From: Candidatus Saccharimonadota bacterium
GTDB lineage: Bacteria > Patescibacteriota > Saccharimonadia > Saccharimonadales > UBA4665
DNA length: 64,000 bases
Direction: 5' to 3'
NCBI GenBank assembly: GCA_028289125.1
Contig: JAQGGZ010000005.1
Span: 62,001-126,000, forward strand
Numbering within the stretch: the stretch's first letter is position 1; every line of letters begins with the position of its first letter. Shown one piece after another: positions 7,660 to 62,205 of this stretch. A program made the position numbers and the translations under genes. A model generated the notes under the pieces. That model was not told the origin of the DNA and made no database searches. It was given only the letters and a program-made list of their open reading frames with translations.

Positions 7660-8043
7660 CTATGGTTTGACGGTCGTACTGATCTCTTGCAGTGCCCACG
7701 AGTTGCCGTCAGGATCGCTGAAATATGCGTATTTTACGCCACCCATATCGTTGATCTCGCTTATAGCTAGGCCGCGTTTTACGAGCTGTTCGCGCGTAGT
7801 GGAAATATCGGCAACTACCAGATGAAGATTGTGTACGGTGCCGTCTTCGGGGTTGTTGTTCCCCATGCCTGTCCCGATGACGACGGAACAGGCTGACCCA
7901 GGTGGCGTTAGCTGGATGATGCGCATCCCATTACCCGGCTCGACGTCATGATCCAACTTGAAGCCGACGGTATCAACGTAAAACGACTTGCTGCGTTCAG
8001 TATCTGTTACCGGTAACGGTACGAGCTCTAATTTCATTTCCAT
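7660..8043 (-). CDS. VOC/glyoxalase-fold protein
   Basis: 127 aa. Two beta-alpha-beta-beta-beta halves of the vicinal oxygen chelate fold: start LVPLPVTDTERSKSFYVDTVGF and end GGVKYAYFSDPDGNSWALQE, the usual C-terminal metal-site region. The family includes glyoxalases, dioxygenases and resistance proteins; the specific reaction cannot be told. GGAG lies 8 bases before the ATG at 8043, and the upstream gene ends 12 bp away, so the two share a transcript. Confidence 0.82.
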   Translation of the reverse strand: MEMKLELVPLPVTDTERSKSFYVDTVGFKLDHDVEPGNGMRIIQLTPPGSACSVVIGTGMGNNNPEDGTVHNLHLVVADISTTREQLVKRGLAISEINDMGGVKYAYFSDPDGNSWALQEISTTVKP

Positions 8044-8055
8044 ACGGGCATCTCC

Positions 8056-8304
8056 TTAGCTGTTACTTTTCATTAGGTCTAATTCGACGTCCAGGTCCGA
8101 CAGCTTATCGTGTGTCAGTTGCTGGGCGTCCGCTATAGCCAAGCCGTAGATGTCTGGGCCAAGATTTCGAACGACAATATCCATGATCTCTTCGGCGGCA
8201 AGCAGGCCGAATTCACCGCCATCCTGCTCTTCGAGCCGCGCTAGTATCTCGTTGGCACAGTGGCGGCGTGTCGCATCATTGCTGATATCCCATTTGCGCT
8301 TCAT
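8056..8304 (-). CDS. DUF2164-family protein
   Basis: 82 aa. The pattern of an N-terminal helix, GEFGLLAAEEIMDIVVRNLGPDIYGLAIADA and a short acidic tail matches DUF2164, a small helical family of unknown function. A TATACT box ends 7 nt before the ATG, with no Shine-Dalgarno, so a leaderless mRNA is likely. It heads a two-gene unit with the VOC protein. Confidence 0.7.
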   Translation of the reverse strand: MKRKWDISNDATRRHCANEILARLEEQDGGEFGLLAAEEIMDIVVRNLGPDIYGLAIADAQQLTHDKLSDLDVELDLMKSNS

Positions 8305-8331
8305 GCGTATAAGTATAGCAGTGCGTGTCGG

Positions 8332-9081
8332 CTATGCTGCCAGCGGATAGATCGTGCCTGCTACATCGGTGATGCTCTTGGGCTCTAAGAAAGGCACGGC
8401 TGCGTAATCGCCATCTCGGAAACTGGCCGCCACGACAATATGGGCTACTGCCAAGCTTGCACAATGACCCTGAGCTTCCTGCATGGCCCTGACGGGTTCA
8501 CCATCGCGAGTAGCGATACTTCCCTCTTCCCTCGGATGTGCTATCGCCCATGTATGTATCTGTTTATGTAGCTGCAGGTTGTCGTCGTTTACCTGGAGTG
8601 TGCGCCCGATAATGTAGTCTAAGCGAGCCTGTTCGTCCATGCCAGTGACAGAATCGAGACTGACAGTTGTCAGTTCGGCAGCGGCCAGTTGCCCGATGTT
8701 AATTCCGGCCGGCTGCGTGTACCGCCGTTGATGGTAGTCATTTGCGTCAGCGGCCTCAAAAATGCATTGCTTACGGTAGCTGCCCGCAATCTCCATCATG
8801 CTTGCGAAAATCAATTTAGCGGCAAAGGTATCATTGCGCCTGAAGCCCTCTTCTTTATACGGAGCCACCCACTGAACTAACCGGCTGTAGTGACTCTTGG
8901 CTTTCCGAGCTAGAAAATTAGAGCTATCGTCGAAAGGTTTAAAAAGATCATTACGGCGCTTCCGGTAATCACTTAAATAAGAATTGCGCCCTTGGTCGGC
9001 ATTAACTATTTCTTGCCGTAACCAATCGGTCATGACATCAGCAATCTTTTCAGAATGAGGATTATCAGGACGGCTTAACAT
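8332..9081 (-). CDS. Hypothetical protein, helical, soluble
   Basis: 249 aa; not recognised. It is predicted soluble, mostly helical, with charged N-terminal 80 residues (MTDWLRQEIVNADQGRNSYLSDYRKRR) and a C-terminal part that ends in alternating hydrophobics (AAVPFLEPKSITDVAGTIYPLAA). There is no signal peptide and no known catalytic motif. TATGGT lies 11 nt before the ATG. The gap to the next gene is short, so it may be its own unit. Confidence 0.7.
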   Translation of the reverse strand: MLSRPDNPHSEKIADVMTDWLRQEIVNADQGRNSYLSDYRKRRNDLFKPFDDSSNFLARKAKSHYSRLVQWVAPYKEEGFRRNDTFAAKLIFASMMEIAGSYRKQCIFEAADANDYHQRRYTQPAGINIGQLAAAELTTVSLDSVTGMDEQARLDYIIGRTLQVNDDNLQLHKQIHTWAIAHPREEGSIATRDGEPVRAMQEAQGHCASLAVAHIVVAASFRDGDYAAVPFLEPKSITDVAGTIYPLAA

Positions 9082-9140
9082 AAAGCAAAAATACCATAAT
9101 AATACCTAACTGTCAAAGTCTAGCTCGTTTGATAAGTCGG

Positions 9141-9398
9141 TTAGTGACGCTCAAGAAAAATACGTTTTAACAGAGATAATGTCAGCGTCGAAAGCATAAA
9201 ACCTATTACAGGAACCAGCGCGTTTATCCAGGGATCGATGTGCACGACGAAGCGCAGATAAAAAGCTACGACGATATATGTCAGGATCATAATACTAACC
9301 CGTCGGGTCCAGCTCGTCTCCCACCGCTTGTCGCCCTCGACACGGGCATTACGTTTCTCAAGCTGTTCGACGCGGCTTTCTATGTCTGTCCCGTTCAT
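9141..9398 (-). CDS. Small coiled-coil membrane protein
   Basis: 85 aa. N-terminal Glu/Arg-rich helix (IESRVEQLEKRNARVEGDKRWETSW) followed by two TM helices (~35-52 and ~57-77) with a basic end. It overlaps the upstream sugar transferase gene by 4 bp (ATGA), so it is coupled to it. Small proteins of this type are common and unassigned; an accessory role for the membrane-bound transferase is an inference. Confidence 0.7.
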   Translation of the reverse strand: MNGTDIESRVEQLEKRNARVEGDKRWETSWTRRVSIMILTYIVVAFYLRFVVHIDPWINALVPVIGFMLSTLTLSLLKRIFLERH

Positions 9399-10066
9399 GC
9401 CGCCGTCCTCTCCTCGGTTGCTGCCATATCCACATTTTCGACGACTTCCATATTCGCGAGCAACATGTCGATTGGCGCTCTCGCCAGGATTTTCATATCT
9501 GCCGTTAAGGACGCCGTATCAAAGTAACGAAGATCAAGCTCAGCCGACTGGCGGTAAATCTCCCGGCTGATACCATTGCGGAAGTGGTGACGGTACGCCT
9601 GACTGGGCCCGGCTAAACCTGGTCGCGTCGCTTGGTAATACCCGTGCCACTCATCAAACAAGTGCGGAGCGACGTCAGCCATGAATTCTATATCAGGCGC
9701 GACCATCGGCCGCGCACCCACCAGTGACATCGAGCCGTCGATGACGTTGCGGATCTGGGGTAGCTCATCCAGCCCGGATTGACGTAGTAATTGGCCGATC
9801 CGGCTGGCCCGTGGATCGAAAGTTCCGTATGTTCTTTCACTCATGGCTGACTTCGCAATGGTACGGAACTTCAAAGCCTTGAACGGTTCACCGCCTTTTC
9901 CTAAGCGCTCTTGCTCGAAAAATGGATTGAAGTCCTTCGTGTCGACGGCGGCCACCGTTCCGATTACGGCTGCTGCGGGCAATATGCTCGCAGCGATGAT
10001 TGAGCCGCCGATAAGGTCGAGGCGTCGTTTTGTATCGCTTGTCAGGTATTCTATGCCGGTTTTCAT
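9395..10066 (-). CDS. Bacterial sugar-phosphate transferase (monotopic phosphoglycosyl transferase)
   Basis: 223 aa. Signatures of the WcaJ/PglC-type family: KRRLDLIGGSIIA membrane re-entrant start, QERLGKGGEPFKALKFRT, then LLRQSGLDELPQIRNVIDGSMSLVGARP. The Asp-Glu pair in LDELPQ is the catalytic dyad. These enzymes move a sugar phosphate onto undecaprenyl phosphate at the cytoplasmic face to start a surface glycan. It lacks the N-terminal four-helix domain of WcaJ, so it is the small form. GARP replaces the more usual GPRP. Confidence 0.88.
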   Translation of the reverse strand: MKTGIEYLTSDTKRRLDLIGGSIIAASILPAAAVIGTVAAVDTKDFNPFFEQERLGKGGEPFKALKFRTIAKSAMSERTYGTFDPRASRIGQLLRQSGLDELPQIRNVIDGSMSLVGARPMVAPDIEFMADVAPHLFDEWHGYYQATRPGLAGPSQAYRHHFRNGISREIYRQSAELDLRYFDTASLTADMKILARAPIDMLLANMEVVENVDMAATEERTAA

Positions 10067-10120
10067 TCGATTGAGCTCATTCTAAACCAGCCAGCCAGCT
10101 TACGCCACATTTTAAAAACG

Positions 10121-10564
10121 TTACTGTGCATTTACCGGCCGAGACGACCGCTTGCGGAAGTGATAGGCGTATCGATCCTTATTATGCCATTTAGGAAAAT
10201 CCAAACGCACGAAATGTATGTTGAGTTTTTCAGCCTCGCTGCTCGAGTAACCGTCTAGCTGGGCTGGCGAATAAAGGTATAGTTCGACTCCCCGTAAATT
10301 GTCTATGCCCTCGATGGCGGCGACTGATCCAAGAAGATGAGATACGACGTCTTCATGGATGAGCCTGTCTCGGTTCCAGCCCTTACATTGTACATAGCGG
10401 CGGACACCATCTTTGCTTGCGATAAGATCGATACCATGATCATTTACACCCAGACTTCCATTGTCGATGACTTCCCAGCCAGCCTGGCGCAAGGTCTGGG
10501 CCACGAAGTACTCGTACCGGCGACCGGCCTGGCGTTGTTTTATTTCTTGGTATTTTTGATACAT
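10121..10564 (-). CDS. Mrr-like PD-(D/E)XK nuclease-fold protein
   Basis: 147 aa. Residues ~10-75 carry an Mrr/restriction-endonuclease-like core: RRYEYFVAQTLRQAGWEV, then HGIDLIASKDGVRRYVQCKGW, which fits Asp...Gln-x-Lys of the fold (Gln in place of Glu, as in Mrr). No methylase is nearby, so it may be a repair or defence nuclease. TATAGT ends 6 nt before the ATG without a ribosome site, so it is probably leaderless. Confidence 0.78.
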   Translation of the reverse strand: MYQKYQEIKQRQAGRRYEYFVAQTLRQAGWEVIDNGSLGVNDHGIDLIASKDGVRRYVQCKGWNRDRLIHEDVVSHLLGSVAAIEGIDNLRGVELYLYSPAQLDGYSSSEAEKLNIHFVRLDFPKWHNKDRYAYHFRKRSSRPVNAQ

Positions 10565-10608
10565 GTCATCACTATAGCACTTGCGCTTAGATGCGGACGG
10601 AAATTACC

Positions 10609-10860
10609 TTAGCGGTGGTTGCAACCGATCCGGCAGCAAGGGCGGCGAACACCTTGTAACAATTCGGTAATCGTCCGCTCGATGTGGTTGGATCTGGTTT
10701 CTGGTCGCTTCGGGCTGAGTATCCAGCAGATCCATTCGTTCCGCGCGAGCGGGGTCAGGTCTTGCCATCGTTCGATGGCTGATTCGTCGGCTACGAGAGC
10801 TTTGCGCAAGTCAGCTGGGATCTCATGGACTACACCGTTAGCGAGCTCGGTTTGGGCCAT
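10609..10860 (-). CDS. YdeI/OmdA-like small protein
   Basis: 83 aa. The stretch VVHEIPADLRKALVADESAIERWQDLTPLARNEWICWI and the Cys-rich end RRPCCRIGCNHR match the C-terminal domain of the YdeI/OmpD-associated family. The exact role in bacteria is unknown. TATAGT ends 6 nt before the ATG. It is divergent from the 81-aa gene at 10902, and the two -10 boxes are about 20 bp apart. Confidence 0.72.
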   Translation of the reverse strand: MAQTELANGVVHEIPADLRKALVADESAIERWQDLTPLARNEWICWILSPKRPETRSNHIERTITELLQGVRRPCCRIGCNHR

Positions 10861-10901
10861 GACTTAACTATATCAAATGACATGTGGTTATAATTCTGCG
10901 T

Positions 10902-11147
10902 ATGGCATTCAATCACTATGCGAAAATCAAACGTATCTTAGAGCAACAACCGGACAGCTGGATAATACGGCGGATCGACAAGCCGACCAGGGTTAAGAAT
11001 TTCAAAGGGAAAATGGTTGAGTTCGACCATTATTACCGTCTGTATGATGGCGGTGGTGAACCGATAAAATATTGTAAGTTTCAGCAACTTGAACGTTTGG
11101 CCAGAGTACTGGGGGTACCGGCCGAAGATCTGCCGGTCGTCAATTAA
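10902..11147 (+). CDS. Hypothetical 81-aa protein
   Basis: 81 aa; not recognised. Basic N-terminal half (FNHYAKIKRILEQQPDSWIIRRIDKPTRVKNFKGKMVEFDHYYRLY, shown in part) and a C-terminal helix ending ERLARVLGVPAEDLPVV. No membrane segment. A consensus TATAAT at 10889-10894 ends 7 nt before ATG 10902, which supports this start over the in-frame GTG at 10884, because that GTG overlaps the promoter. Confidence 0.65.
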   Translation: MAFNHYAKIKRILEQQPDSWIIRRIDKPTRVKNFKGKMVEFDHYYRLYDGGGEPIKYCKFQQLERLARVLGVPAEDLPVVN

Positions 11148-11249
11148 TTCGGGTCCATGTTGGACTCACCAACGCTCAACCGTCAGTTAGGCCGTAGTTA
11201 TCCCTGACGGCCGTGCTTCGCAACTTTTATGCACTAGAGGTTGAGGAAG

Positions 11250-11435
11250 TCAGGAGTTTACTAATCGCTTAATACTATTAGCGACTTCTTGCAGTGGTTT
11301 AGTCGCGTCAATAATTACGGCAATGGACTCGTCGTACAGATCATCCATAGCGTGCTTTCGATCTAATATCCCCAGAATTTTAGCCAAGGCTGACTTGCCG
11401 CTGCCGGCTGAACCAGTTACGTAGATAAATGACAT
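11250..11435 (-). pseudogene. Remnant of a P-loop kinase (internal deletion)
   Basis: Only 61 aa. It starts with a clean Walker A (VTGSAGSGKSALAK) and a KHAMDDLYDE segment but then goes straight into a C-terminal-like end (VIIDATKPLQEVANSIKRLV). Normal proteins of this type have about 180 residues with a Walker B and lid, all absent here. An in-frame deletion is the simplest reading. A TATCAT box 7 nt upstream suggests it may still be transcribed. Confidence 0.5.
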
Positions 11436-11541
11436 GCACCTAATGATAAAACCCCTGAATGTTACAAAGTTATCAGCTGCCTACCCAAATAATTAACAGA
11501 GGATTATAACTTCTGTTAATCTTAGTTTTAGCCTTGCAAGA

Positions 11542-12456
11542 CTATTCTCCTAGAAGTTCTGCAAGCGAATTTCTCTGAGTTATAGCGAGTTGGCTATCAG
11601 GTGTTGTCAACATAGTTCCATGAAGGGCTATCCATCCTCTGACAGCAACAATATCGTAGATTCTTTCTCTTTCAAGCACAGTAAGTTTTCTAGATTGTTC
11701 GTAATTAGCTATATACTCGCTTAAATCCGAGATACCGCCCTCGTCCGACTCGAGTATGTCCCATAAAGTCCCCGCTAAACAAAATGCCAAGGGTGCATAG
11801 TTGGCGTCAGCGAAATCGATCACGCCTACAAGCGTACCGTTCGAAACAATAATGTTATTACGCTTAATATCCATGGGTACGAATCCGCTCGGTAGTTGAT
11901 CCCATAAATCCTCGAGTTCTAACAGTTTTTGACGTGATAGCTCGTCGATGGTTTTAAATTTCACATCATTTGTTTCAGGTTCATAAAAATTATAATTTTT
12001 TAGAGGGTCAAACCCACCAAAATATTCATGATCCAAGGAATATAGATGGATTCGTCCGTGCGTACGCCCTAAGTCATGCACTAGCCCACGTCCATAATTC
12101 TCTGGATGATAGCCTGCGATTGCGCGGGTCAGAGTTGTAGCGTGCTCTCCGTGATCACTGCGAATGAAGTTTACGGGCTCACTAGTAATTGACGGAATAT
12201 AATCAGGCACTGGAAGCCCGGAAATCGCGAGCTTTCCTACAAATTCCACCTCTCTTAAAACGATGTTTCGTTCATGCGTTGTCTTATAGTATTTGAGGAA
12301 GTACTCACTGCTGTCGTGATCTCTGATCTTTAGGACGGTGTTCGATATCCCCTCTGCTACCTCTTCGTGCGTATCGAGCCCAATGCCATAAGCGTCCAAT
12401 GTGGATTCTAGAAGTGGTAAGGTCAGACTCACCTGCGTATCCGGGTTTATTCTCAT
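11542..12456 (-). CDS. APH/homoserine-kinase-like phosphotransferase
   Basis: 304 aa. Kinase-like fold of the aminoglycoside phosphotransferase family: ATP-site Lys in YFLKYYK, catalytic loop VPMDIKRNNIIV (Asp and Asn kept, with Pro-Met where His-Gly is usual), and metal-binding GVIDFADANY. The substrate is unknown; family members act on aminoglycosides, homoserine, choline or nucleoside-like compounds. It lies 3 bp after the Nudix gene and is last in the low-GC nucleotide cassette, so a small metabolite linked to nucleotides is more likely than an antibiotic (inference). Confidence 0.8.
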   Translation of the reverse strand: MRINPDTQVSLTLPLLESTLDAYGIGLDTHEEVAEGISNTVLKIRDHDSSEYFLKYYKTTHERNIVLREVEFVGKLAISGLPVPDYIPSITSEPVNFIRSDHGEHATTLTRAIAGYHPENYGRGLVHDLGRTHGRIHLYSLDHEYFGGFDPLKNYNFYEPETNDVKFKTIDELSRQKLLELEDLWDQLPSGFVPMDIKRNNIIVSNGTLVGVIDFADANYAPLAFCLAGTLWDILESDEGGISDLSEYIANYEQSRKLTVLERERIYDIVAVRGWIALHGTMLTTPDSQLAITQRNSLAELLGE

Positions 12457-12459
12457 GTC

Positions 12460-12921
12460 CTAAATTCTAACGAAGTCTGACTCTGTAGCAACGCTGAGCC
12501 TGCCAAGCGCCCATGCAGCTGCTTCAACCACAGTTTCAATTTTAGGCTCAAATGAATCTAGCTGATCGATCTCTACCCAGGCATATTCGCTGTACTCTTC
12601 ATTTAGAGAGATTTCGCCGCCTTCATAAACACACGCGGCGTGTGGTAGCACCATACTATTCCCGTCTTGTTTCCTAAAAAGCAGATTATAACTTTCCTTC
12701 GGCAATACTTTTAAGCTAACTCGATCACCCACTTCTTCATTTTTCTCACGCTGCATGCCGGCGAGTAGCGTTTCATCTGTGGTTTCCATTTTGCCACCTA
12801 TAAATGAAAAAACGCCGTCAAAATCCGCCTCTCCTTTTCGTTTGGCTAATAGTACTGAATCAAGTTCTTGATTCAGTACCACCAGTTTTTGACAATATTG
12901 AAATGATAGATTTTCAGCCAT
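12460..12921 (-). CDS. Nudix hydrolase
   Basis: 153 aa. Nudix box GGKMETTDETLLAGMQREKN then EEVGD keeps the R-E...E-E-x-G core; the first Glu position is Asp. The N-terminal FSFIGGK is the usual lead-in. Substrate unknown; a nucleoside diphosphate derivative is expected. It is 13 bp from the upstream Nudix gene and 3 bp from the downstream APH-like kinase, so it is one transcript with them. Confidence 0.85.
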   Translation of the reverse strand: MAENLSFQYCQKLVVLNQELDSVLLAKRKGEADFDGVFSFIGGKMETTDETLLAGMQREKNEEVGDRVSLKVLPKESYNLLFRKQDGNSMVLPHAACVYEGGEISLNEEYSEYAWVEIDQLDSFEPKIETVVEAAAWALGRLSVATESDFVRI

Positions 12922-12934
12922 AGTAGCTTATCCT

Positions 12935-13384
12935 TTATATATTCCAGCCGAAGTTTGTGTATATATCTCCCGAAGTGACTGCACTTAATACCGATTTTAC
13001 GGCGGGAATCATGTTCTCAGGCAATTCATCAGCGGCGTACCACTCTAGTAAGTTGCACTTCTCAGGCTCCATATTGGTAATATTACCCGACCAACCCTTG
13101 GCTTCAAAATAGAAGTCTACTCTCTCGTTGGCGTTACCGGCCACATCTGATTTTCTGTGTAATACATGCACTAATTTTAATGCAGTATCCTCGATTGTAA
13201 TGCCTAGTTCCTCTTTAGCTTCACGTATGACGGCCTCACTGAGTGTTTCGCCGCCATCTACATGTCCTGCAGGTAGAGAGAAATCACCATCGTGGTATCC
13301 TGTGTTTTTTCGCTGTAGTAGTAAAATCTTATTATTGTCTCTGAGAATAACGTAGACAGCGGGTATCAAACGGAAGTGATTCAC
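12935..13384 (-). CDS. Nudix hydrolase (MutT-like)
   Basis: 149 aa. Canonical Nudix box GHVDGGETLSEAVIREAKEE then LGI. LPAGHVDGG and the surrounding layout resemble MutT/dNTP-type or ADP-ribose-type pyrophosphatases. It overlaps the upstream ribonucleotide reductase gene by 4 bp (ATGA), so it is coupled to it. A role in cleaning or processing nucleotides made by the same cassette is inferred. Confidence 0.88.
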   Translation of the reverse strand: MNHFRLIPAVYVILRDNNKILLLQRKNTGYHDGDFSLPAGHVDGGETLSEAVIREAKEELGITIEDTALKLVHVLHRKSDVAGNANERVDFYFEAKGWSGNITNMEPEKCNLLEWYAADELPENMIPAVKSVLSAVTSGDIYTNFGWNI

Positions 13385-15144
13385 TTAGAGTCGCCTAGCT
13401 TTAATGGTTGTAATGAATGCGTACCTTCTCGATATATAGTAATACCACTCATGCCGTCTTGCCATGCTTTGTAGTATATATTCTGTACGTCCGATGGGGT
13501 TGTGTCTGACGGCATATTTACTGTTTTCGAAACAGCCTCATCAATTACCTTCTGTACTCCTGCAGCCATGTTCAAATGATTAACTACAGAGATTGCTGTT
13601 GCATTTTCACACACTTCCAAAACGGCTGCTTCATGCTTAGTCGGTATAATGCGTCCACTCTTTATACCGTTAAAGCGGTCTGCGGCTATGCCCTGCATTT
13701 CAAGGTGGTCTGCCACTGGTGCAATTAATTCGCCAACCGAATTAGTAAATGAGAAATGGGGTTCTATGCCCGTAGAAGCATCGATCACTAAGCTGCTACG
13801 ACCGGTTGGTGGTAAGGCGGTTGTAGTCACATTCCTTAGATGTCTAGATGACTTGATTACCTGAGCTAATCTTGACCAGTCGTCACCGCTTACCATTTCG
13901 GTATCAATCTCGCTAAATAACTTATCAAGTAACGGACGCTCAGCGGTATGTCTATTCATAGGATTTTCATCACTTATGTTTAGTAGGTTCATTGCACCAC
14001 AAGACCCGCGCTCTTCGGCGAGATTTATGGAGGCCAATTTAGAATTATAGTTTACCCACGCTATAGCATTTTGGACACTTTGTACCGCTTCTTCACTAGA
14101 ATAGCTAACACCCATTTTTACTAGTAGATCAGCAACCCCACAAATCCCTACACCTATCTTTCGTTTGAGACGCATAATATGCGTGCTTTTCGGGGTAGTG
14201 TAGTTTTGTAAGCTTAGTTCAAGACAGTTGTCCAGTACCCGTGTCATCATGCGCGAAGTAGTCGCCAGCTTGTCATAATCAATAGTAAACTTGTCGCCGT
14301 TCTGTTTGAGGAATTTCCCAAGATTAATATATCCAAACTGACAGGTTTCGCCAGGCGCTAAGCCAACCTCAGCGCAAGGCGCAGTAGTTTGGTAAAGGCC
14401 TATTCCGGGAGTTGGATTGCGGTCATTCATACGATTTAGGAAAATCAGGCCTGGATCGGCTGACATGTGCGCCGCTTCACCTATTTGATTGAAAATGGAA
14501 CTTGCCTTAACTTTCGAGCCATCGTCGAGATCAATAACTCCATCCGACCCTACTGCTCCCATAAATTCATCATCAACGTCAACAGATATATTGAACTTCC
14601 ACGTCGACCCGTCTCTTGCCGATTCGCGCTTCGCGTCAATAAATTCTCGTATTTTAGGGTGTCGTACAGGTATGATCGCCATATTCCCTACTGGACGATC
14701 CTCCATCCCGCTTTCCGAACCTGTTACTGCAACTCGATTCAGGTAATCAAGCATTGACACTGGGTCTTCTGTATCCCCAAGATTAAAGCCGGTTCCCATA
14801 CCTTGCTGGTGTAGTGTGTCGATCATGCTTTTCACGTTCTTCAAGTCGCCCCTCAGGTCTACCGGAGGCATTGTGCAGGCAGTTAGCGGCTTCTCGGCGT
14901 ATCTTCCAGCATTCGTTAATACAGGCGTGCTCATAACCACTTCACCTTTATCACACATTTCACCAAATTCTTGTGCAAGTTTCCCACTTACATGTTGTGG
15001 AGTGCCAAATTGTTCTTCGGCTGCGAATGCAGTTTGTACGACACGTTCGATCATATTTGCCGCAGATTCATCGTTGCTAATAATGTTGCCTTGTCGTAGT
15101 ACGCTTTCAGCACCGCTAGAAGGAATAAAAGTAGATTTATACAT
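13381..15144 (-). CDS. Atypical ribonucleotide reductase catalytic subunit (class II-like)
   Basis: 587 aa. RNR barrel features: ACTMPPVD (first redox Cys ~C90), GMGTGFNL, TTAPCAEVGLAPGETCQFGYINL in part (thiyl Cys ~C257 and second redox Cys ~C268), LPPTGRSS phosphate loop, and a C-terminal ITIYREGTHSLQPL like the YRDGS segment of NrdJ. There is no ATP cone and no second subunit nearby, which points to B12-dependent class II. Odd points: the Asn normally two before the thiyl Cys (NPCxE) is Ala, and the protein stops right after the YREG segment, so the Cys-rich C-terminal tail that usually re-reduces the active site is missing. Start ATG 15144 has GGAG 10 nt upstream; the TTG at 15153 is rejected. 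Confidence 0.8.
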   Translation of the reverse strand: MYKSTFIPSSGAESVLRQGNIISNDESAANMIERVVQTAFAAEEQFGTPQHVSGKLAQEFGEMCDKGEVVMSTPVLTNAGRYAEKPLTACTMPPVDLRGDLKNVKSMIDTLHQQGMGTGFNLGDTEDPVSMLDYLNRVAVTGSESGMEDRPVGNMAIIPVRHPKIREFIDAKRESARDGSTWKFNISVDVDDEFMGAVGSDGVIDLDDGSKVKASSIFNQIGEAAHMSADPGLIFLNRMNDRNPTPGIGLYQTTAPCAEVGLAPGETCQFGYINLGKFLKQNGDKFTIDYDKLATTSRMMTRVLDNCLELSLQNYTTPKSTHIMRLKRKIGVGICGVADLLVKMGVSYSSEEAVQSVQNAIAWVNYNSKLASINLAEERGSCGAMNLLNISDENPMNRHTAERPLLDKLFSEIDTEMVSGDDWSRLAQVIKSSRHLRNVTTTALPPTGRSSLVIDASTGIEPHFSFTNSVGELIAPVADHLEMQGIAADRFNGIKSGRIIPTKHEAAVLEVCENATAISVVNHLNMAAGVQKVIDEAVSKTVNMPSDTTPSDVQNIYYKAWQDGMSGITIYREGTHSLQPLKLGDSK

Positions 15145-15703
15145 ACGGATCAATCTCCAAGCCTATTAATGTGGCTTCCACGCTGGCGCGCAGATCGTCA
15201 TAAGTGCCCTCATTAATAATGGTAGCGATTGCTAGGCGACCAACTTCAATTATTGATTGGTTACTGCTGCTTGTAGAAATCGACTCACCGCTCTCCCAGC
15301 TTTGGAAAGTTGCAAGGTCTACATCATCCCCGACCCTTCCACGCGATAATGCTCGCTCGTATCGTAGGCGCTGAGCTGCGTCGCACTTTATAATCTTTCC
15401 CCCAGCTTCGCCTGCAAAATACTCCGCTTCCGCTTTCGAATATAGTCCAGAAATGATAACTCTATCCGACTCGCATCGCATAAGCGACGCTTGGATAATT
15501 GCAGACGCGTCACTTGCTCGAAGCTCTCTAGCAACTGCTGTTAATAAAGGACGGGTCGGTTCGCCTAAGTTGTTTGCTTTAATGTGGTCTCGAATAACAT
15601 CACTACTGGTTACGGGTTCGAAACCATGAAAATCGCGCAGAATATTAGCGACTGTGTCTTTGCCGCTACACTGGAACCCTGTAACTCCTAGTAGTTCTGC
15701 CAT
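15137..15703 (-). CDS. Deoxynucleotide monophosphate kinase-like P-loop protein
   Basis: 188 aa. Walker A GVTGFQCSGKDTVANIL close to the start, then SSDVIRDHIK, VIISGLYSKAEAEYF, a basic lid-like stretch RLRYERALSRGR, and an alpha-helical end. This matches dNMP kinase/AAA_33-like kinases and, more distantly, dephospho-CoA kinase. It overlaps the ribonucleotide reductase gene by 8 bp and heads the five-gene cassette. A good minus-strand promoter (TTGACA-17-TATGAA) ends 9 nt before the ATG. Confidence 0.78.
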   Translation of the reverse strand: MAELLGVTGFQCSGKDTVANILRDFHGFEPVTSSDVIRDHIKANNLGEPTRPLLTAVARELRASDASAIIQASLMRCESDRVIISGLYSKAEAEYFAGEAGGKIIKCDAAQRLRYERALSRGRVGDDVDLATFQSWESGESISTSSSNQSIIEVGRLAIATIINEGTYDDLRASVEATLIGLEIDPYV

Positions 15704-15712
15704 GGTCAGTTA

Positions 15713-15741
15713 TTCATAACATACCCAAAGGTATATGTCAA
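15713..15741 (-). promoter_or_regulatory. Sigma70-type promoter of the nucleotide cassette
   Basis: On the minus strand: TTGACA (15741-15736), 17-bp spacer, TATGAA (15718-15713), then 9 nt to the ATG at 15703. A start site about 7 nt after the -10 box leaves almost no 5' UTR. Confidence 0.7.
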
Positions 15742-16042
15742 TAAATTTCCAGGGCGTCGTACACTGTCAAATAATGTGTGATGACTATACGTATCGAGCG
15801 CATGTCGTACGTGAATCTATGCGACTTGACCCATGCGGATAGCTGGTGAGTTATTGACCCCCACCTTCTCTTCTGCTTTTGCATTCTCTCTACTTGGTAC
15901 GCGCGCAAAATTTATTTCGTACTATAGAATTCATCCTGTGCGTTCTTAAAATGCTCGGCACTTTCATTGAGCAAAAACGGTTACTCATCAATATTGTACT
16001 TTCGAACTTACGGCTAGACGGTGAATTACTTCGGTACGAAAT
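15742..16042. other. Intergenic stretch without a supported gene
   Basis: Low-GC DNA between the nucleotide cassette and the tRNA-Asn unit. Both strands hold only short open frames without ribosome sites or recognisable motifs. It may be degraded mobile-element DNA given the tRNA-end repeat beside it, but nothing in the sequence proves that. Confidence 0.5.
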
Positions 16043-16088
16043 AGATAAGCTTTTCGATACAATCATAGATTGCACGAAAAGCTTATCT
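16043..16088 (-). terminator. Long hairpin ending the tRNA-Asn unit
   Basis: Perfect 14-bp stem AGATAAGCTTTTCG (16043-16056) / CGAAAAGCTTATCT (16075-16088). The 18-nt loop contains a further CAATC-ATA-GATTG helix. It directly follows the second copy of the tRNA-Asn 3' end, where a displaced original terminator would be expected. Confidence 0.6.
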
Positions 16089-16259
16089 TGGCTCGGGCGA
16101 CCGGATTATAGCTTCACGCCGGATACCTTTTAAATTTTTACGGATTAGCGATTCGGGCTTGGCATAGGTTTTGGTTAATCACCAAAACATCGAACGTTCG
16201 GTATAATCCGTTCACTCGAGCCAAACAAAAACACCTTCGGCGAGGAAGGTGTTTTTGTT
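16089..16259 (-). repeat. 171-bp structured tRNA-tail unit, copy A (tRNA-Asn)
   Basis: Read on the minus strand after the tRNA: a 15-bp/8-nt-loop hairpin, an inverted copy of the tRNA 3' end (19 of 22 positions pair with the final copy, plus one wobble), a conserved middle with TTCGATGTTTTG...CAAAACCTATGCC, a conserved 20-mer CCGGCGTGAAGCTATAATCC (16122-16103), and a direct copy of the tRNA-Asn 3' end including CCA (16107-16089, 18 of 19 bases identical to 16278-16260). The spacing between the two tRNA ends is 171 bp. The same unit follows tRNA-Gln at 53035-53204. No open frame is present. It is either a tiny mobile element using tRNA 3' ends or a structured RNA; see findings. Confidence 0.75.
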
Positions 16260-16260
16260 T
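16223..16260 (-). terminator. Terminator of tRNA-Asn (inside the repeat unit)
   Basis: 15-bp stem AAACAAAAACACCTT / AAGGTGTTTTTGTTT with an 8-nt loop, starting at the tRNA CCA end. The pairing continues into the tRNA end itself because the inverted copy CGAGCC lies on the far side. Confidence 0.8.
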
Positions 16261-16334
16261 GGCTCGGGCGACTGGATTCGAACCAGTGACATTTCGGTTA
16301 ACAGCCGAACGCTCTACCGCTGAGCTACGCCCGA
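16260..16334 (-). tRNA. tRNA-Asn (anticodon GTT)
   Basis: 75 nt with encoded CCA. Acceptor stem TCGGGCG/CGCCCGA, D-arm GCTCAGCGGTAGAGC, anticodon arm TTCGGCTGTTAACCGAA with GTT in the loop, T-arm CTGGTTCGAATCCAG, discriminator G. All stems pair fully, so it should be functional. Confidence 0.95.
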
Positions 16335-16474
16335 ATACTTCAACTGACTTATTCTACCTGCCGGCGTACAATCTGTAAACCTCTTTGAGAACGATTATGG
16401 CAGTCCCGTGCGTAAGTCATTACGATATGTCTAAAGCGCTTTGAAAAGTAGTAGAAATATGGTATGGTATCGTC

Positions 16475-19801: not shown

Positions 19802-19830
19802 TATCCCCACAGTATAACAGAGGCCGACCA

Positions 19831-19859
19831 TTGACAAACACGGAAGCCAGTAGTGTAAT
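19831..19859 (+). promoter_or_regulatory. Sigma70-type promoter of the gene at 19869
   Basis: TTGACA (19831-19836), 17-bp spacer, TGTAAT (19854-19859), then 9 nt to the ATG at 19869. It overlaps the divergent smpB promoter region. Confidence 0.75.
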
Positions 19860-25966: not shown

Positions 25967-25989
25967 GCCTGTAGTATACAGATGACGAT

Positions 25990-28279: not shown

Positions 28280-28297
28280 ATATAAAGTATAGCACGG

Positions 28298-28326
28298 TTG
28301 CACCTCGCTGCCACCCCTTGTATACT
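28298..28326 (+). promoter_or_regulatory. Promoter of the ATP synthase operon
   Basis: TTGCAC (28298-28303), 17-bp spacer, TATACT (28321-28326), then 10 nt to the ATG at 28337. Predicted 5' UTR is only a few nucleotides. Confidence 0.75.
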
Positions 28327-35581: not shown

Positions 35582-35625
35582 GCGTCCTATTGTACCCTAT
35601 CCCTGTTATACGGTACAATTGACGG

Positions 35626-36496: not shown

Positions 36497-36660
36497 ACTC
36501 GTAAGTATATGGAGCGTGACACAAAATAGCTGTGATATTGGATACGTGGAAAAGACTTGCACGCAGGTTTATAATAGATTGAGTTGTTAAAAATAAATTA
36601 AGTTCATAGGAATTTATTGTGATACGAGACGGATATCCAGATTCAGTGGAGGAATTTGCT

Positions 36661-41817: not shown

Positions 41818-41845
41818 GTCCATCTATTGTACTATCATGACGCAC

Positions 41846-42074: not shown

Positions 42075-43262
42075 TTAAGCGTTGGCTGCGGCGCAGATCT
42101 TACAGAGGTGATCTTCTTCGAATTCGGTGAACCACTGCCCTGGTACTTTCCACCAAGGTTGGTAATCGGCGTAACCGGCAATGTCCCCGGCTTCTCGAAG
42201 GAGCCAACCGAGCTTACCGTAAATGCGGAGCTTACCGTAATTGACCGCTGCCCACTGAGGCCCGGCAGGAATTACGGACACCGGACGTTTCGGTTGGTAG
42301 CCGCGCATGTCCTTGCCGTCCAGGGCGCGCAATATGTTTTCAGCCACAAACTTTCCGTCGTAGAGGGCGGTCTGGGCCATGCCGCTGAATGGCGTATTAG
42401 CGTTGTCGCCGATGACGAAGATGTTATCTTCGGCTTGCAAGAAAATGTCAGTCGCGACCTTGCCGCGTCCCATCATGACGAAGTTATTGGCTTTGAAGAA
42501 CGGGTGGTTGGTAACGCCGGCGGTCCAGATGACGGTGTGGCTGCTGATCGGCTTGCCGTTGACCATCAAGGCGTCGGCGGTCTGACCTTGCACGGCCTGG
42601 CCAACGTACAGTTTGACGCCGAGGCGCTTCAGCCGGCGTTTGACTGCCCGGGAGGTGTCTTTCGGCATGCGTGGCAATAACCGGGGAGCAGCTTCGATAA
42701 GATCGATATGGATGGCACGGCGTCGGACGCCATGGTTGGCCATGATCTCTTTGAGGTAGCCCGGTAGGCTACCGGCTAACTCGATACCGGTCGGACCGGC
42801 ACCGATTATGACGTAGTTGAGGTCTGGTTGTCTTTCATCTTCTATCTGGTCGTGCAGATGACGCTTCAGTTCGTCGATGTCGTCAAGTGATTTGACGCCG
42901 TATGAATATTCCTGGAGCCCTTCGATGCCGAAGTAATTGGTGACGACGCCCAGGCCGAGGACGAGCTGGTCGTAAAACAATACCTGTTTGTCCTCCGTGA
43001 TGACGGATTTGGCCTTGCGGTCGATCGTCGTGGCCGTACCTTTGACAATACGCACGTCGGTATCACCGAAAAGCGCGTCAAGGCTGAGGGCGGCGTTACT
43101 GTGGGCGCCGCCGGTCGCGGTATGGTAGGACGTCGGGTAGTACCGGAATACAGAACGGTCACTGAGCAACGTGACGGCCACCTTAGATGATCTTGATAAT
43201 TCCAACGCCGCTTTGACACCGCCAAAGCCTCCGCCAACGACGAGTATTCGTTGCTTAGCCAT
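42075..43262 (-). CDS. ndh: Type II NADH:quinone oxidoreductase (NDH-2)
   Basis: 395 aa. Two Rossmann motifs: FAD site VVGGGFGGVKAALEL at the N-terminus and NADH site VIIGAGPTGIELAGSL near residue 155; FVIGDNANTPFSGMAQTA is the flavin-binding end and a C-terminal amphipathic region (WLLREAGDIAGYADY) would attach it to the membrane. It passes electrons from NADH to quinone without pumping protons. GAGGAG is 6 nt before the ATG. It is divergent from the FAD dehydrogenase and next to the cyo operon. Confidence 0.93.
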   Translation of the reverse strand: MAKQRILVVGGGFGGVKAALELSRSSKVAVTLLSDRSVFRYYPTSYHTATGGAHSNAALSLDALFGDTDVRIVKGTATTIDRKAKSVITEDKQVLFYDQLVLGLGVVTNYFGIEGLQEYSYGVKSLDDIDELKRHLHDQIEDERQPDLNYVIIGAGPTGIELAGSLPGYLKEIMANHGVRRRAIHIDLIEAAPRLLPRMPKDTSRAVKRRLKRLGVKLYVGQAVQGQTADALMVNGKPISSHTVIWTAGVTNHPFFKANNFVMMGRGKVATDIFLQAEDNIFVIGDNANTPFSGMAQTALYDGKFVAENILRALDGKDMRGYQPKRPVSVIPAGPQWAAVNYGKLRIYGKLGWLLREAGDIAGYADYQPWWKVPGQWFTEFEEDHLCKICAAANA

Positions 43263-43340
43263 TTTGTCTCCTCAGTTTTTGTTGCGCTTTATGCATTTCC
43301 ACCTTATTATAGTAGTCATAAGCAGAATCACAAAATAGAA

Positions 43341-45005
43341 ATGGACCAATTCAAACAACTACTTCTGAAGGCCGGTTTTAAGGGTGACCTTGATGATAGT
43401 GCCAGCGCCAAGGAATTTTACAGCCATGACGCTTCCCTGTTTGAGATCAAGCCGAAACTGATCGTCATACCGAAAGACTCAGCTGACGTTCAGACGCTCG
43501 TGGCCTTGGTTCATAAGCAGAAAAAGTCGATGCCTGAACTGTCGGTTACCGCTCGCTCGGCAGGTACCGACATGGCCGGGGGGGCTATCAATGACTCGAT
43601 CATCGTTGATTTCAATAAGTACTTCCAGACGATTCATTCGGTCACGTCACGTGTCGCCAAAGCCCAGCCGGGCGTCTTTTACCGTGATTTTGAAAAAGAG
43701 ACGCTCAAGAAAAACGCCTTGATGCCGTCGTACCCGGCTTCACGTGAGCTGGCTACGATCGGCGGTATGGTTGCCAATAACTCTGGCGGTGAAAAATCGT
43801 TGGAATACGGTAAGGTTAAGGACTTCGTCAATGAGCTGCAGGTCGTGTTTGCCGACGGCAAGGAATACACCGTCAAGCCTCTGACCCGCGTCGAGCTGTT
43901 GCGCAAGATCGCCCAGAAGGATTACGAAGGCAATATTTACAAGCGTATCTTTGAACTCTGTGAAAATAATTATGATGTCATCAAGGCTGCCAAGCCACAG
44001 GTCAGCAAGAACTCGATGGGCTACACGTTATGGGAAGTCTGGGACCGCGAAACCGGCGTCTTCGATCTGACCAAACTGATCGTCGGTTCAGAAGGCACCC
44101 TCGGTTTCGTCACGGACATCACCTACCGATTAGTCGAACACCGCCCTCACTCAGGTGTGCTGGTACTCTTCTTAAAAGACCTAAATGGTCTCGGAGAGCT
44201 GATTCCTCGGGTTCTTAAGTCGAAACCGGCCACTTTTGAATCATTTGATGATCAGACTTTGCTGTTGTCCATTCGGTTCATGCCGAGCTTCTTAAAGATG
44301 CTGGGCCTGAAGCGTTTCGTACACCTCTGCTTCTCACTTATCCCTGACGGTTTGCAACTGCTCCGTGGCATACCGAAACTTATCCTCATGGTTGAATTCA
44401 ACGGCAAGACCGAACAAGAGGTGCGAGAAAAGGTCAAGGCACTGCACAGTGATTTGTCACACCTGAAAGCCCGTTACGAGATCAACGGGTTTGAAGAAGA
44501 CGCTACCGAGGCTAAGGCCGAAAAGTTCTGGGTGATGCGCCGCCAAAGTTTCCAGTTGCTTCGCAGCAAGGTCAAGGACAAGCACACGGCGCCATTCATC
44601 GACGATCTTATCGTTCAGCCGAAGTACATGCCGGAATTCCTGCCACAGCTCCGCGTTATCATCAAGAAGTACAAGTTGTTCGCTACGATTGCCGGACATA
44701 TGGGTGACGGCAACTTCCACATCATTCCGCTCATGAAGCTTGAGGATAAGAAAGAACGCCGAAAATTATTACCGGCCATGAAAGAAGTCGACGAACTCGT
44801 GCTTAAATATAAGGGTTCGCTGAGTGGTGAGCACAACGACGGCTTGGTGCGCGGGCCTTGGCTTGAGCAACAGTTCGGCAAGGAAGTCGTAGACCTTTTC
44901 CGTGAGGTCAAACATATCTTCGACCCTCAGAATATCTTCAATCCCCACAAAAAATCCGATGCTGACTGGGACTACAGTTACCAGCACATCCGCGACCATT
45001 TCTAG
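43341..45005 (+). CDS. FAD-linked 2-hydroxyacid dehydrogenase (GlcD/D-lactate type)
   Basis: About 554 aa. FAD_binding_4 domain (PKDSADVQTLVAL, SAGTDMAGGAI, GGMVANNSGGEKSLEYG) and FAD-oxidase C-terminal domain (GHMGDGNFHIIPL, SGEHNDGLVRG). The His-Gly-Asp and Glu-His-Asn-Asp-Gly motifs are the active-site set of D-lactate/glycolate dehydrogenases. It would feed quinone from a 2-hydroxyacid, probably D-lactate. It sits 3 bp before cyoA, so it is likely expressed with the oxidase. ATG 43341 gives the family start; TATAGT is ~27 nt upstream. Confidence 0.88.
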   Translation: MDQFKQLLLKAGFKGDLDDSASAKEFYSHDASLFEIKPKLIVIPKDSADVQTLVALVHKQKKSMPELSVTARSAGTDMAGGAINDSIIVDFNKYFQTIHSVTSRVAKAQPGVFYRDFEKETLKKNALMPSYPASRELATIGGMVANNSGGEKSLEYGKVKDFVNELQVVFADGKEYTVKPLTRVELLRKIAQKDYEGNIYKRIFELCENNYDVIKAAKPQVSKNSMGYTLWEVWDRETGVFDLTKLIVGSEGTLGFVTDITYRLVEHRPHSGVLVLFLKDLNGLGELIPRVLKSKPATFESFDDQTLLLSIRFMPSFLKMLGLKRFVHLCFSLIPDGLQLLRGIPKLILMVEFNGKTEQEVREKVKALHSDLSHLKARYEINGFEEDATEAKAEKFWVMRRQSFQLLRSKVKDKHTAPFIDDLIVQPKYMPEFLPQLRVIIKKYKLFATIAGHMGDGNFHIIPLMKLEDKKERRKLLPAMKEVDELVLKYKGSLSGEHNDGLVRGPWLEQQFGKEVVDLFREVKHIFDPQNIFNPHKKSDADWDYSYQHIRDHF

Positions 45006-45008
45006 ACT

Positions 45009-45899
45009 ATGAAGTATAAGAAGCTAATCTTTATCGCGCTCGCCGTGGCGGCACTCGTGGCCCTTTCGATCTGGTATCTGCACGATAAGCCTTTCGCGTT
45101 GTTTGAGTCGCGCGGAGTCATCGCCCATGAAGAACGTAAACTGATGGTTTTCACGCTGGCGCTGAGCCTGGTAGTGGTGATACCGGTTTTCGCATTACTT
45201 ATCGGTATCGTCTGGCGTTACCGGGACACCAATCAAAAGAAAGCAAGATATGATCCGACTTGGGACCACAATCGTATGGCCGAGACTATCTGGTGGTTGA
45301 TACCGACGGCTATCATTACCGTGCTCGCGATTGTCACCTGGCAAAGTACGCATCAGCTTGATCCCTACCGTCCGATCGCATCTACGGTCAAGCCTGTCAA
45401 AGTGCAAGTCGTCGCCCTGGACTGGAAGTGGCTGTTCATTTATCCTGACGAACGTATCGCGACAGTTAATTTCGTCCAGCTTCCCGTCAATACTCCCGTG
45501 GACTTTGAAATAACATCGGCTGGACCCATGAATTCATTCTGGATTCCGCAGCTTGCGGGCCAGATTTACGCTATGAGCGGGATGTCCTCGCAGCTGCACG
45601 TCATGGCCGATCAGACGGGCGACTACCGCGGTTCGTCAGCCAATCTGAGTGGCAAAGGATTCGCTGGCATGACCTTCATTACCCGCGTCAGCAGCACCAG
45701 TGAATACTATGACTGGGTACAATCCGCCAAAACGATCGAAAGCGAGCTTAACCAGGGCAGTTACGACGCGCTGGCATTGCCGAGCCAGAATAATCCGGAA
45801 ACCCTTTACGGTTACGTTGAGCAGAACCTCTATGATACGATAGTAATGAAAGATATGGGGTCAACACACACAACACATCAGCACGGAGCTGACGAATAA
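45009..45899 (+). CDS. cyoA: Cytochrome bo3 quinol oxidase subunit II
   Basis: 296 aa. Signal/TM start, two TM helices, then a cupredoxin domain ([23 protein letters not shown], in part; [16 protein letters not shown]). The CuA Cys/His ligands are absent, as expected of a quinol rather than cytochrome c oxidase. The last 20 residues are His/Thr-rich. The stop overlaps the cyoB start by one base. Confidence 0.95.
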
Positions 45900-47881
45900 T
45901 GCTCCTTGCCAACGTGCTCGGTAAACTGAATGCCGATCAGTTCCCGCACGATCCAATCGCTGCCGGTGGGGCCCTCACGGTCGTCGGCGCGATGATCGTC
46001 ATCCCGGTATTACTCACGTATTTCAAGCGGTGGGGTTGGTTATGGAATAACTGGTTGACCAGTCTTGATCATAAGAAAATCGGGATCATGTACCTGTTGG
46101 TGTCGGGCATCATGCTACTCCGTGGTGTCGCTGACGCCCTGATGATGCGTACCCAGCAGGCCGTGTCGACCGGTGCCAACAGCGGTATACTCGACGCCGA
46201 ACATTTCCAGCAGGTATTCTCGGCCCATGGATCGATCATGATTTTCTTCGTGGGTATGGGCTTTATGTTCGGCATCATCAACGTCATACTGCCGCAACAG
46301 ATCGGCTCACGCGACGTCGCCTTTCCGTTTCTGAACTCTGTCAGTTTCTGGCTGTTCGCAGCCGGCGCAATACTTATGAACGTTTCGCTCGTGGTCGGTG
46401 AATTCTCGTCTGCCGGCTGGCTGGCTTACCCGCCGCTTTCAGAACTTAAGTTCAGTCCGGGCGTCGGCGTGGACTATTGGATATGGAGCTTGCAGATCGC
46501 AGGCGTCGGCAGTCTACTGTCTGGCATCAACTTCTTCACGACCATAATAAAGATGCGCGCCGCCGGTATGACTCTCATGAAAATGCCGATGTTTGCCTGG
46601 AGTGTGCTCGGCAGCATGGCACTCGTCATAACGGCCTTCCCTATCCTGACCGTTACGCTGGCATTACTTGCGCTGGATCGAAGTCTCGGCATGCATTTCT
46701 TTACGACCGACGGCGGAGGTAATGCCATGATGTACATCAACCTGATCTGGGCCTGGGGACATCCCGAAGTGTACATTCTGATATTGCCGGCGTTCGGCAT
46801 CTTTTCTGAAATCGTGGCGACCTTCTCGCGTAAACGTCTGTTCGGCTATACCTCGATGGTTTGGGCAATCGGAGCTATCGTCTTTCTGTCATTCACCGTC
46901 TGGTTGCACCACTTCTTCACGATGGGTGCCGGGGCTGACGTCAACTCGTTCTTCGGTATTATGACGATGGTCATCTCAATACCGACCGGTGTCAAGATAT
47001 TCAACTGGTTGTTCACCATGTACCGCGGGCGCATACGACTGGCGACACCGATGCTTTGGTTCCTCGGATTCGTCGTGACCTTTACGATCGGTGGCGTCTT
47101 CGGGGTGCTGCTATCGGTCCCGCCGGCTGATTTTCAGCTGCACAACAGCCTGTTCCTGGTGGCCCACTTCCATACTATGATCATCGGCGGCGTGCTGTTC
47201 GGCTACTTCGCCGGACTGACCTACTGGTTCCCGAAGATATTCGGCTTCAAACTGAACGAACGACTCGGCAAGTATGCCTTCTGGTTCTGGCTGTCCGGCT
47301 TCGTCTTAGCGTTCGTGCCGCTCTACATTCTTGGACTGATGGGTGCGACGCGCCGACTGAACCACTACGACGCATCGCTTGGTTGGCAGGGTCTTTTCAT
47401 AGTCGCCGCGGTAGGTGTCGTGCTGGTCTGCATCGGTATATTCTTCCAGGTCCTACAATTGGTCGTCAGTTTCTTATTGCGTAAGAACCACACCGATATG
47501 ACTGGCGATCCATGGAATGCCCGCACGCTGGAATGGTCAACGGCTTCACCGTCACCGGTTTATAACTTTGCCGTGCTTCCGACGGTGCGTGACCGGGATG
47601 AGTTCTGGGAAATGAAGCAACGCAAAGAATCACTGAAACAGCCGAAGTATGAAGCGATTGAATTGCCAAAGAACAGCCCATTCGGACTATATATCGCCAT
47701 CGCGGCTGGCGTATTCGGCTTCGCGGTCATCTGGCAGATCGTCTGGTTGATTCCTATCGCTTTGCTGGCTGTCATCGCGCTTATCATCGTCCGCTCCAGT
47801 GACACCGACACCGAATATCGTATTTCAGCGGCGCAAGTCGCAGCCATTGAAGCCGCCCGGCCACGAGGACAAGTCGTATGA
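45899..47881 (+). CDS. cyoB: Cytochrome bo3 quinol oxidase subunit I
   Basis: 660 aa. Haem-copper oxidase type A: low-spin haem His in [11 protein letters not shown], CuB/Tyr ligands in [12 protein letters not shown], CuB His pair in WLHHFFTMG, and haem ligands in HFHTMIIGG. Quinol-site residues known from E. coli are kept: Arg and Asp in [12 protein letters not shown], His and Gln in [12 protein letters not shown]-channel Asp in [10 protein letters not shown] is present. It should reduce O2 and pump protons. Confidence 0.98.
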
Positions 47882-48486
47882 TGTACCAAGACACTGCCAA
47901 GGTAGTGAAGCGACATACCGCCAAAGCTGAGTCTAACGATAAGACCACTTTCGGATTCTGGGTCTATCTGATGACCGACTGCGTCCTCTTTGCCACTCTC
48001 TTCGCTGTCTACGCCGTCCTGCATAACAATACCGCCGATGGCCCGAGCAGCGACGGTCTGTTCAGCTTACCGCTCGTGCTCACCGAAACCATCATCTTGC
48101 TCACGAGCAGTTTTGTGTGCGGCTTAGCCATACTTGCCGCGCGCCAAGGCCGCAAGAAAGCGGTCATGTCGTTCCTGATCATAACCGGCCTGCTCGGCCT
48201 GGCTTTCCTCGGAATTGAGCTGACCGAATTCCGCGACCTTATACATGAGGGCCACAGCTGGCGTCAGAGCGCCTTCCTGTCGTCATTCTTCACGCTAGTC
48301 GGTACTCATGGTCTGCACATCGCCAGCGGCCTTATCTGGCTTGTAACGCTGTTATGGCAGATCAGTAAGCAAGGGCTGTCGGGAAGCAGTCTCAAGCGGC
48401 TGACATTGTTCGGTATGTTCTGGCACTTCCTCGATGTCGTCTGGATATTCATATTTACCATCGTGTACATGATAGGATCGTTATAG
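47878..48486 (+). CDS. cyoC: Cytochrome bo3 quinol oxidase subunit III
   Basis: 202 aa with five TM helices; [24 protein letters not shown] at the start, [15 protein letters not shown] and [11 protein letters not shown] are subunit III signatures. Two ATGs in tandem (47878, 47881) overlap the cyoB stop, so translation is coupled. Confidence 0.96.
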
Positions 48487-51612: not shown

Positions 51613-51751
51613 TGCGTGTCATCCTCCTTACGCACTCTCAGCATAGCGCTTACGTCTAAAGAATATCTGTGAGAATTTTTACACAAATCGGCGTGGGTAG
51701 GTGTTAAGGATTGGGTTAGCAGTATCGTCCCCGGTAACTTATTATGATTAT

Positions 51752-53634: not shown

Positions 53635-53711
53635 ATATGTATAGTATACGGGATATTTTCTCACTGCGGATGCGTAGTTCGGTTCCTAGTCCGGCCGCAC
53701 CACGATAGCTG

Positions 53712-53748: not shown

Positions 53749-53964
53749 ATGGAACGAATAACACGTAGCCGTTCACAAGCGGACCATGAAGAAGCAGATG
53801 TGATGGATGACCAGGAGCTGCAAGCGGCTCAGGAAGCTGCCCGGGCCAATTTGGATGAGATCGATCTCGATGAAGTCGACAGCCTCCTCGAGGAGATAGA
53901 TGATGTGCTCGAAAAGAATGCTACCGGCTTCATCTCTGGATTTGTCCAGGTAAACGGACAGTAA
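53749..53964 (+). CDS. pup: Prokaryotic ubiquitin-like protein Pup
   Basis: 71 aa. The acidic helical C-terminal half LLEEIDDVLEKNATGFISGF then VQVNGQ aligns with M. tuberculosis Pup LLDEIDDVLEENAEDFVRAY then VQKGGQ (16 of 26 identical by eye). N-terminal part is charged and disordered. The end is Asn-Gly-Gln instead of Gly-Gly-Gln; a terminal Gln needs deamidation by Dop before ligation to lysines. Start ATG 53749 has AGGGAG upstream; the in-frame ATG at 53719 overlaps the -10. It faces the PafA/Dop gene tail to tail with a 3-bp gap. Confidence 0.93.
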   Translation: MERITRSRSQADHEEADVMDDQELQAAQEAARANLDEIDLDEVDSLLEEIDDVLEKNATGFISGFVQVNGQ

Positions 53965-55371: not shown

Positions 55372-55464
55372 GCCGTATGACTATAAACTCATATTACGCC
55401 CTAAGCAAAAGCGCGACTTTCCAGATATGAGATGATATAATATGTCCGAATAACCTCACACCCA

Positions 55465-56394: not shown

Positions 56395-56409
56395 TATACT
56401 GTTGGCATA

Positions 56410-58661: not shown

Positions 58662-58669
58662 GTCATAAT
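58641..58669 (+). promoter_or_regulatory. Promoter of the AI-2E-family gene
   Basis: TTGCAA (58641-58646), 17-bp spacer, CATAAT (58664-58669), then 9 nt to the ATG at 58679; it lies over the end of the preceding gene. Confidence 0.6.
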
Positions 58670-62190: not shown

Positions 62191-62205
62191 GTGTATCAGT
62201 ATAAA

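Follow-up and report, generated by a model that had tools for sequence, protein, structure and literature searches.

Many genes in this Saccharimonadota genome have a −10 box directly in front of the start codon, and the same layout at the same genes across dozens of related genera is, judged from the sequences compared, real, conserved and widespread. It is very likely that these boxes are sigma-70-type promoters from which transcription starts on the AUG, or no more than about 3 nt away from it, and yields leaderless mRNAs. According to the mechanism that we propose, −10 elements of ordinary sigma-70-type promoters, often in the extended form TGnTATAnT, would abut the start codon, and the first nucleotide transcribed would be the A of this codon or one that lies at most about 3 nt from it, because the −10 element usually lies 6–9 nt from the transcription start. 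Such an mRNA would have no leader, and the ribosome would have to load on the 5'-terminal AUG. Both the transcription start at the AUG, from the box-to-start spacing, and the leaderless loading are inferred; leadered transcripts could also arise from additional promoters further upstream.

Proximal −10 boxes in the window

A sequence-only reading of the window, that is, the whole stretch of 64,000 nt analysed here, had listed 21 starts with a −10 box close upstream and no Shine-Dalgarno (SD) sequence. All 21 starts were re-measured, and the sequence and gap of 20 boxes agreed with those given by that reading (Table 1). The box assigned to the start at 15703 lacks the terminal T, is weak and was not accepted; the one before 16475 matches the consensus TATAAT at four of six positions, and the one before 19869 is devoid of the key A at the second position (A2). 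The remaining 18 boxes match TATAAT at five or six positions, with both A2 and the terminal T (T6) present. The absence of SD sequences was borne out, with no SD-like motif within 14 nt of any of the 21 starts. The assertion that several of the genes also have −35 boxes at 16–18 bp holds for six starts, with at least 4/6 matches (16475, 19869, 28279, 51752, 58679 and 62190). Pfam families are assigned to 17 of the 21 genes, all except 10902, 19869, 36496 and 53634.

Table 1 Start codons in the window with a proximal −10 box, as re-measured (gap, nucleotides between box and ATG)
Element	Positions	Strand	ATG	Gap	Gene and context
−10 TATACT	8312..8317	-	8304	7	DUF2164
−10 TATAGT	10571..10576	-	10564	6	Mrr-like nuclease gene 10121-10564, PF04471
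−10 TATAGT	10867..10872	-	10860	6	YdeI/OmdA-like gene 10609-10860, Pfam PF13376
−10 TATAAT	10889..10894	+	10902	7	No family (81 aa); start 41 bp from that of the divergent gene 10860
Claimed box TATGAA	15713..15718	-	15703	9	AAA/kinase-like gene; weak, not accepted
−10-like TATGGT	16463..16468	+	16475	6	Cytidine-deaminase-like; −35 TTGAAA at 16 bp
−10 TATACT	19811..19816	-	19801	9	smpB
−10-like TGTAAT	19854..19859	+	19869	9	Consensus −35 TTGACA at 17 bp
−10 TATACT	25973..25978	-	25966	6	CobA/CobO
−10 TATACT	28286..28291	-	28279	6	Glutaredoxin
−10 TATACT	28321..28326	+	28337	10	AtpI-like, ahead of presumed ATP synthase genes
−10 TACAAT	35589..35594	-	35581	7	mscL; half of 44-bp back-to-back pair with 35626
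−10 TACAAT	35614..35619	+	35626	6	ATP synthase epsilon; other half of pair with 35581
−10 TATACT	36504..36509	-	36496	7	No family
−10 TACAAT	41826..41831	-	41817	8	UvrD helicase with PD-(D/E)XK nuclease
−10 TATTAT	51740..51745	+	51752	6	Colicin V/trypsin-like protease
−10 TATACT	53643..53648	-	53634	8	No family (97 aa); existence of the gene uncertain
−10 TATAGT	55380..55385	-	55371	8	Pup-ligase-like
−10 TATACT	56395..56400	+	56410	9	Glycosyltransferase; directly behind upstream stop
−10 CATAAT	58664..58669	+	58679	9	AI-2E transporter
−10 TATACT	62198..62203	-	62190	7	DHH/DHHA1 gene; box at upstream gene's end

Genome-wide position and promoter architecture of the box

The genome assembly comprises 874 kb in 11 contigs and is 89% complete. 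For the genome-wide counts, 293 genes in 346 kb were called, together with their starts, from the coding score alone by a simple gene caller that is blind to the upstream sequence. Upstream of the 80 divergent leading genes so obtained, the motif TANNNT at gaps of 6–9 nt sums to 32, compared to about two per position elsewhere, which confirms the close spacing reported for the window; the commonest gap is 7. With a stricter box, 29 of the 80 genes are positive (8.8 expected, P = 5.6e-8), and when other plausible starts are allowed, 26 are (8.4 expected). The identical pipeline yielded no enrichment in Escherichia coli (3/26 vs 3.0 expected) and was positive for the plasmid MP1 of Deinococcus radiodurans, a known user of leaderless genes; for this plasmid, with its few genes, the signal was no longer significant once the box was made stricter and the starts flexible. 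A control motif with its letters reversed showed some excess at these positions too, because its content overlaps that of the −10 motif, and therefore we place the weight on position, on the TGn extension and on orthologs.

These data bear on the simplest alternative, namely, that TATAAT-like hexamers arise by chance in AT-rich intergenic DNA and that the starts were chosen to fit them. A 4/6 box at a gap of 6–11 nt does precede about 10% of random ATGs, but a 5/6 box does so at only 2.3% of the 2166 ATGs on both strands of the window, so that 18 genes with such a box or a better one are far above chance even though the starts had been chosen by a reader. Given, in addition, the position-specific excess with blind starts (P = 6e-8), the negative result in E. 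coli and the conservation among orthologs described below, this explanation is extremely improbable and, when all the genes are taken together, refuted; the single weak cases at 15703 and 53634 may be due to chance.

Alignment on the box gives the consensus TATA(A/C)T in this genome, preceded by an enrichment of T at the third and of G at the second position upstream. The TGn extension, which was not a criterion for the selection of boxes, accompanies 19 of the 40 proximal boxes and 20 of the 414 box-like hexamers within genes (P = 2e-12), and by these features the proximal boxes are predicted to be extended −10 promoters. The −35 signal is weak in the genome itself. Among 86 boxes pooled from orthologs, a −35 element is found at a spacer of 17 in 19 cases and of 18 in 14 cases, with 0–7 cases at other spacings, while the gap between box and AUG varies from 6 to 11 nt. 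Pyrimidines at position −1 were no commoner at genes with a box than at SD genes and are uninformative as a signature of the start site.

Alternatively, the TATA-like box could be a non-SD element for ribosome binding or unfolding that lies within a longer leader, a role that has been proposed for AT-rich regions in Bacteroidetes. In favour of this reading, other phyla are known to have AT-rich sequences around their starts (PMC5397173), and many leading genes in this genome have no SD sequence. However, because the −35 spacing tracks the box and not the AUG, as does the position of TGn, the box is best explained as a promoter rather than a ribosome-binding element. The strict hexamer, moreover, has the A2 and T6 typical of a −10 element; SD use is intact, as is the anti-SD sequence in relatives; and the starts that stand back to back at 41–44 bp (10860/10902 and 35581/35626) leave scant space for either gene of a pair to have a leader. 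Short spacing of divergent starts, taken as a test of its own, yielded too few pairs. We therefore regard a non-SD element as very improbable.

Conservation at orthologous start codons

Orthologs of three of the listed genes (smpB, UvrD and DHH) were collected from relatives, with starts placed by protein similarity and the genome's own copy included in the counts. For smpB, a box is found 5–11 nt before the homology-defined start in all 30 genera of the order, and an SD sequence in none (0/30). The same holds for the UvrD-type gene in 24 of 27 relatives (SD in 2) and for the DHH gene in 23 of 30 (SD in 4), against a background of 17–29% at other 7-nt windows of the same ortholog sequences. 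The nearest named matches of the UvrD gene are from Candidatus Saccharibacteria/Saccharimonadia and have the same upstream layout; by these matches, we take the host to belong to Saccharimonadia, phylum Patescibacteria.

Conservation also bears on the possibility that the boxes are real promoters but that translation actually begins at codons further downstream, in which case the mRNAs would be leadered. The choice of a start from one genome is indeed uncertain, and some of the listed genes have several possible starts. In the smpB and UvrD orthologs from 27–30 genera, however, the protein starts at the same residue adjoining the box, in most cases with similarity to residue 1, which makes downstream starts very improbable. 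The position of the box, the TGn extension, the −35 element that tracks the box and the conservation at orthologous starts together lend strong support to the claim that leaderless genes are widespread.

More broadly, across 255 ortholog pairs, the box is kept in 14/30 for leading genes with a box, compared to 7/56 for leading genes without a signal. Orthologs of internal SD genes carry the strict box in 0/49 cases and an SD sequence in 26/49; these genes served as the SD control in place of the divergent oxidoreductase at 43262, which was dropped. The latter is SD-led in this genome, and its orthologs have a proximal box in 23/30 and an SD sequence in only 2 (own copy included), so that the mode of initiation can switch.

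Enrichment of the box was detected in most relatives from the same order and family (80-kb samples, some single samples being too small for significance). It is not universal in Patescibacteria: among other members of this group, it is strong in three genomes (G053, G081 and G068) and absent in four (G049, G062, G090 and G086). In smpB from 30 other Patescibacteria, where the starts are less certain, the box is present in 23/30 and SD in 0/30. It is conceivable, and we suggest this tentatively, that Patescibacteria acquired leaderless initiation of particular genes long ago or even inherited it from their ancestor, smpB being apparently leaderless across many lineages of the phylum, and that the trait is tied to reduced ribosomes possibly without bS1.

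Leading and internal genes and the translation machinery

The rule of the sequence-only reading that first genes are leaderless and internal genes use SD sequences is too strong, the ratio of box to SD being 24:41 in leading and 12:38 in internal genes, a trend short of significance (P = 0.16). Three of the listed genes, at 25966, 56410 and 62190, sit 15–23 bp behind a same-strand gene; by position they are not first genes, and they would therefore have internal promoters within apparent operons. A proximal box is found in 32% of the divergent leading genes (10% background) and an SD sequence at some plausible start in 29%, which puts the leaderless share above background at roughly a fifth to a quarter, with a similar SD share. 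About half of the leading genes have neither at the caller-chosen start. The SD signal peaks at 5–10 nt in both leading and internal genes, and the genome is predicted to mix leaderless and SD-led initiation.

The 16S gene of this genome is cut by a contig end, and the evidence on the anti-SD sequence comes from relatives: GGATTACCTCCTTTCT, with the CCTCC core, is intact in seven members of the order. Full-length 16S matches in relatives (five loci) range from ~1376 to 1743 bases, and several matches end at model position 873, which suggests insertions or contig breaks.

A search for S1 domains in this one, 89%-complete genome detected only two genes, which read as PNPase and NusA, and no multi-domain bS1. 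Ribosomal protein bS1 thus seems to be absent from the genome or missing from the assembly, which we take as a hint; in E. coli, leaderless mRNAs need no bS1.

The advice of the sequence-only reading to use the box in choosing starts is sound. In a phylum with almost no experimental knowledge, the promoter rule settles where genes start and where units end, and it predicts for which genes translation could do without SD pairing. The host is a tiny, probably parasitic bacterium, and how translation starts in ultra-small episymbionts whose ribosomes are reduced becomes a testable question.

Other features of the window

Next to the oxidoreductase, a CATAAGC/GCTTATG element precedes the divergent FAD-oxidase/cytochrome-oxidase genes (43263-43340). 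In many relatives, this element recurs between the −10 box and the AUG of the Pyr_redox_2 gene, or just upstream, and it is possibly an operator. The region 43251-48486 encodes a cytochrome/quinol oxidase subunit I (PF00115) and its neighbours, pointing to aerobic respiration in a Saccharibacterium. A Pup-like protein (PF05639) is encoded at 53750-53964 (+), with the likely start ATG 53750 behind GGGAG, and is adjoined by the Pup-ligase-like gene (53968-55371, -), which was found in only 11 of the 60 genomes searched, including this one. A search of the 89%-complete genome for a proteasome subunit (PF00227) detected none. The stretch from ~8000 to 16400, with lower GC (0.45–0.49) and a poor coding score under the genome's own model, contains Mrr-like, APH-like and sugar-transferase genes and was possibly acquired.

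Comparison with known systems

Extended −10 sigma-70 promoters are characterized by TGnTATAAT and a weak or absent −35 element. The boxes of this genome resemble them in the TGn extension and the weak −35 signal, which is clear only in the pooled orthologs, and differ in that the element abuts the start codon. The likeness to the non-SD initiation of the Bacteroidetes type consists in the AT-rich sequence before starts without SD, whereas here SD sequences are retained and the AT-rich element has the architecture of a promoter; a genome-wide absence of SD was not found, given the SD peak at 5–10 nt and the anti-SD CCTCC in relatives from the order.

The leaderless layout itself is of a known kind, in a lineage for which we found no report: a search confined to openly readable papers yielded none on leaderless genes in Saccharibacteria, TM7, Patescibacteria or the Candidate Phyla Radiation. 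The closest systems are the TA-led leaderless genes known in Actinobacteria and Deinococcus-Thermus (Zheng et al. 2011, PMC3160421; Zhong et al. 2025, PMC12340547), and no mention of TM7, Patescibacteria or Saccharibacteria was found in these two papers. The genes described here resemble them in the TANNNT motif ~10–12 bp upstream of the start, the absence of SD and the coexistence with SD-led genes, and differ in belonging to Saccharibacteria/Patescibacteria. Their share of genes, ~11–15%, is below that in Deinococcus (30–46%) and nearer to that in Actinobacteria (~20%) (PMC3160421; PMC12340547).
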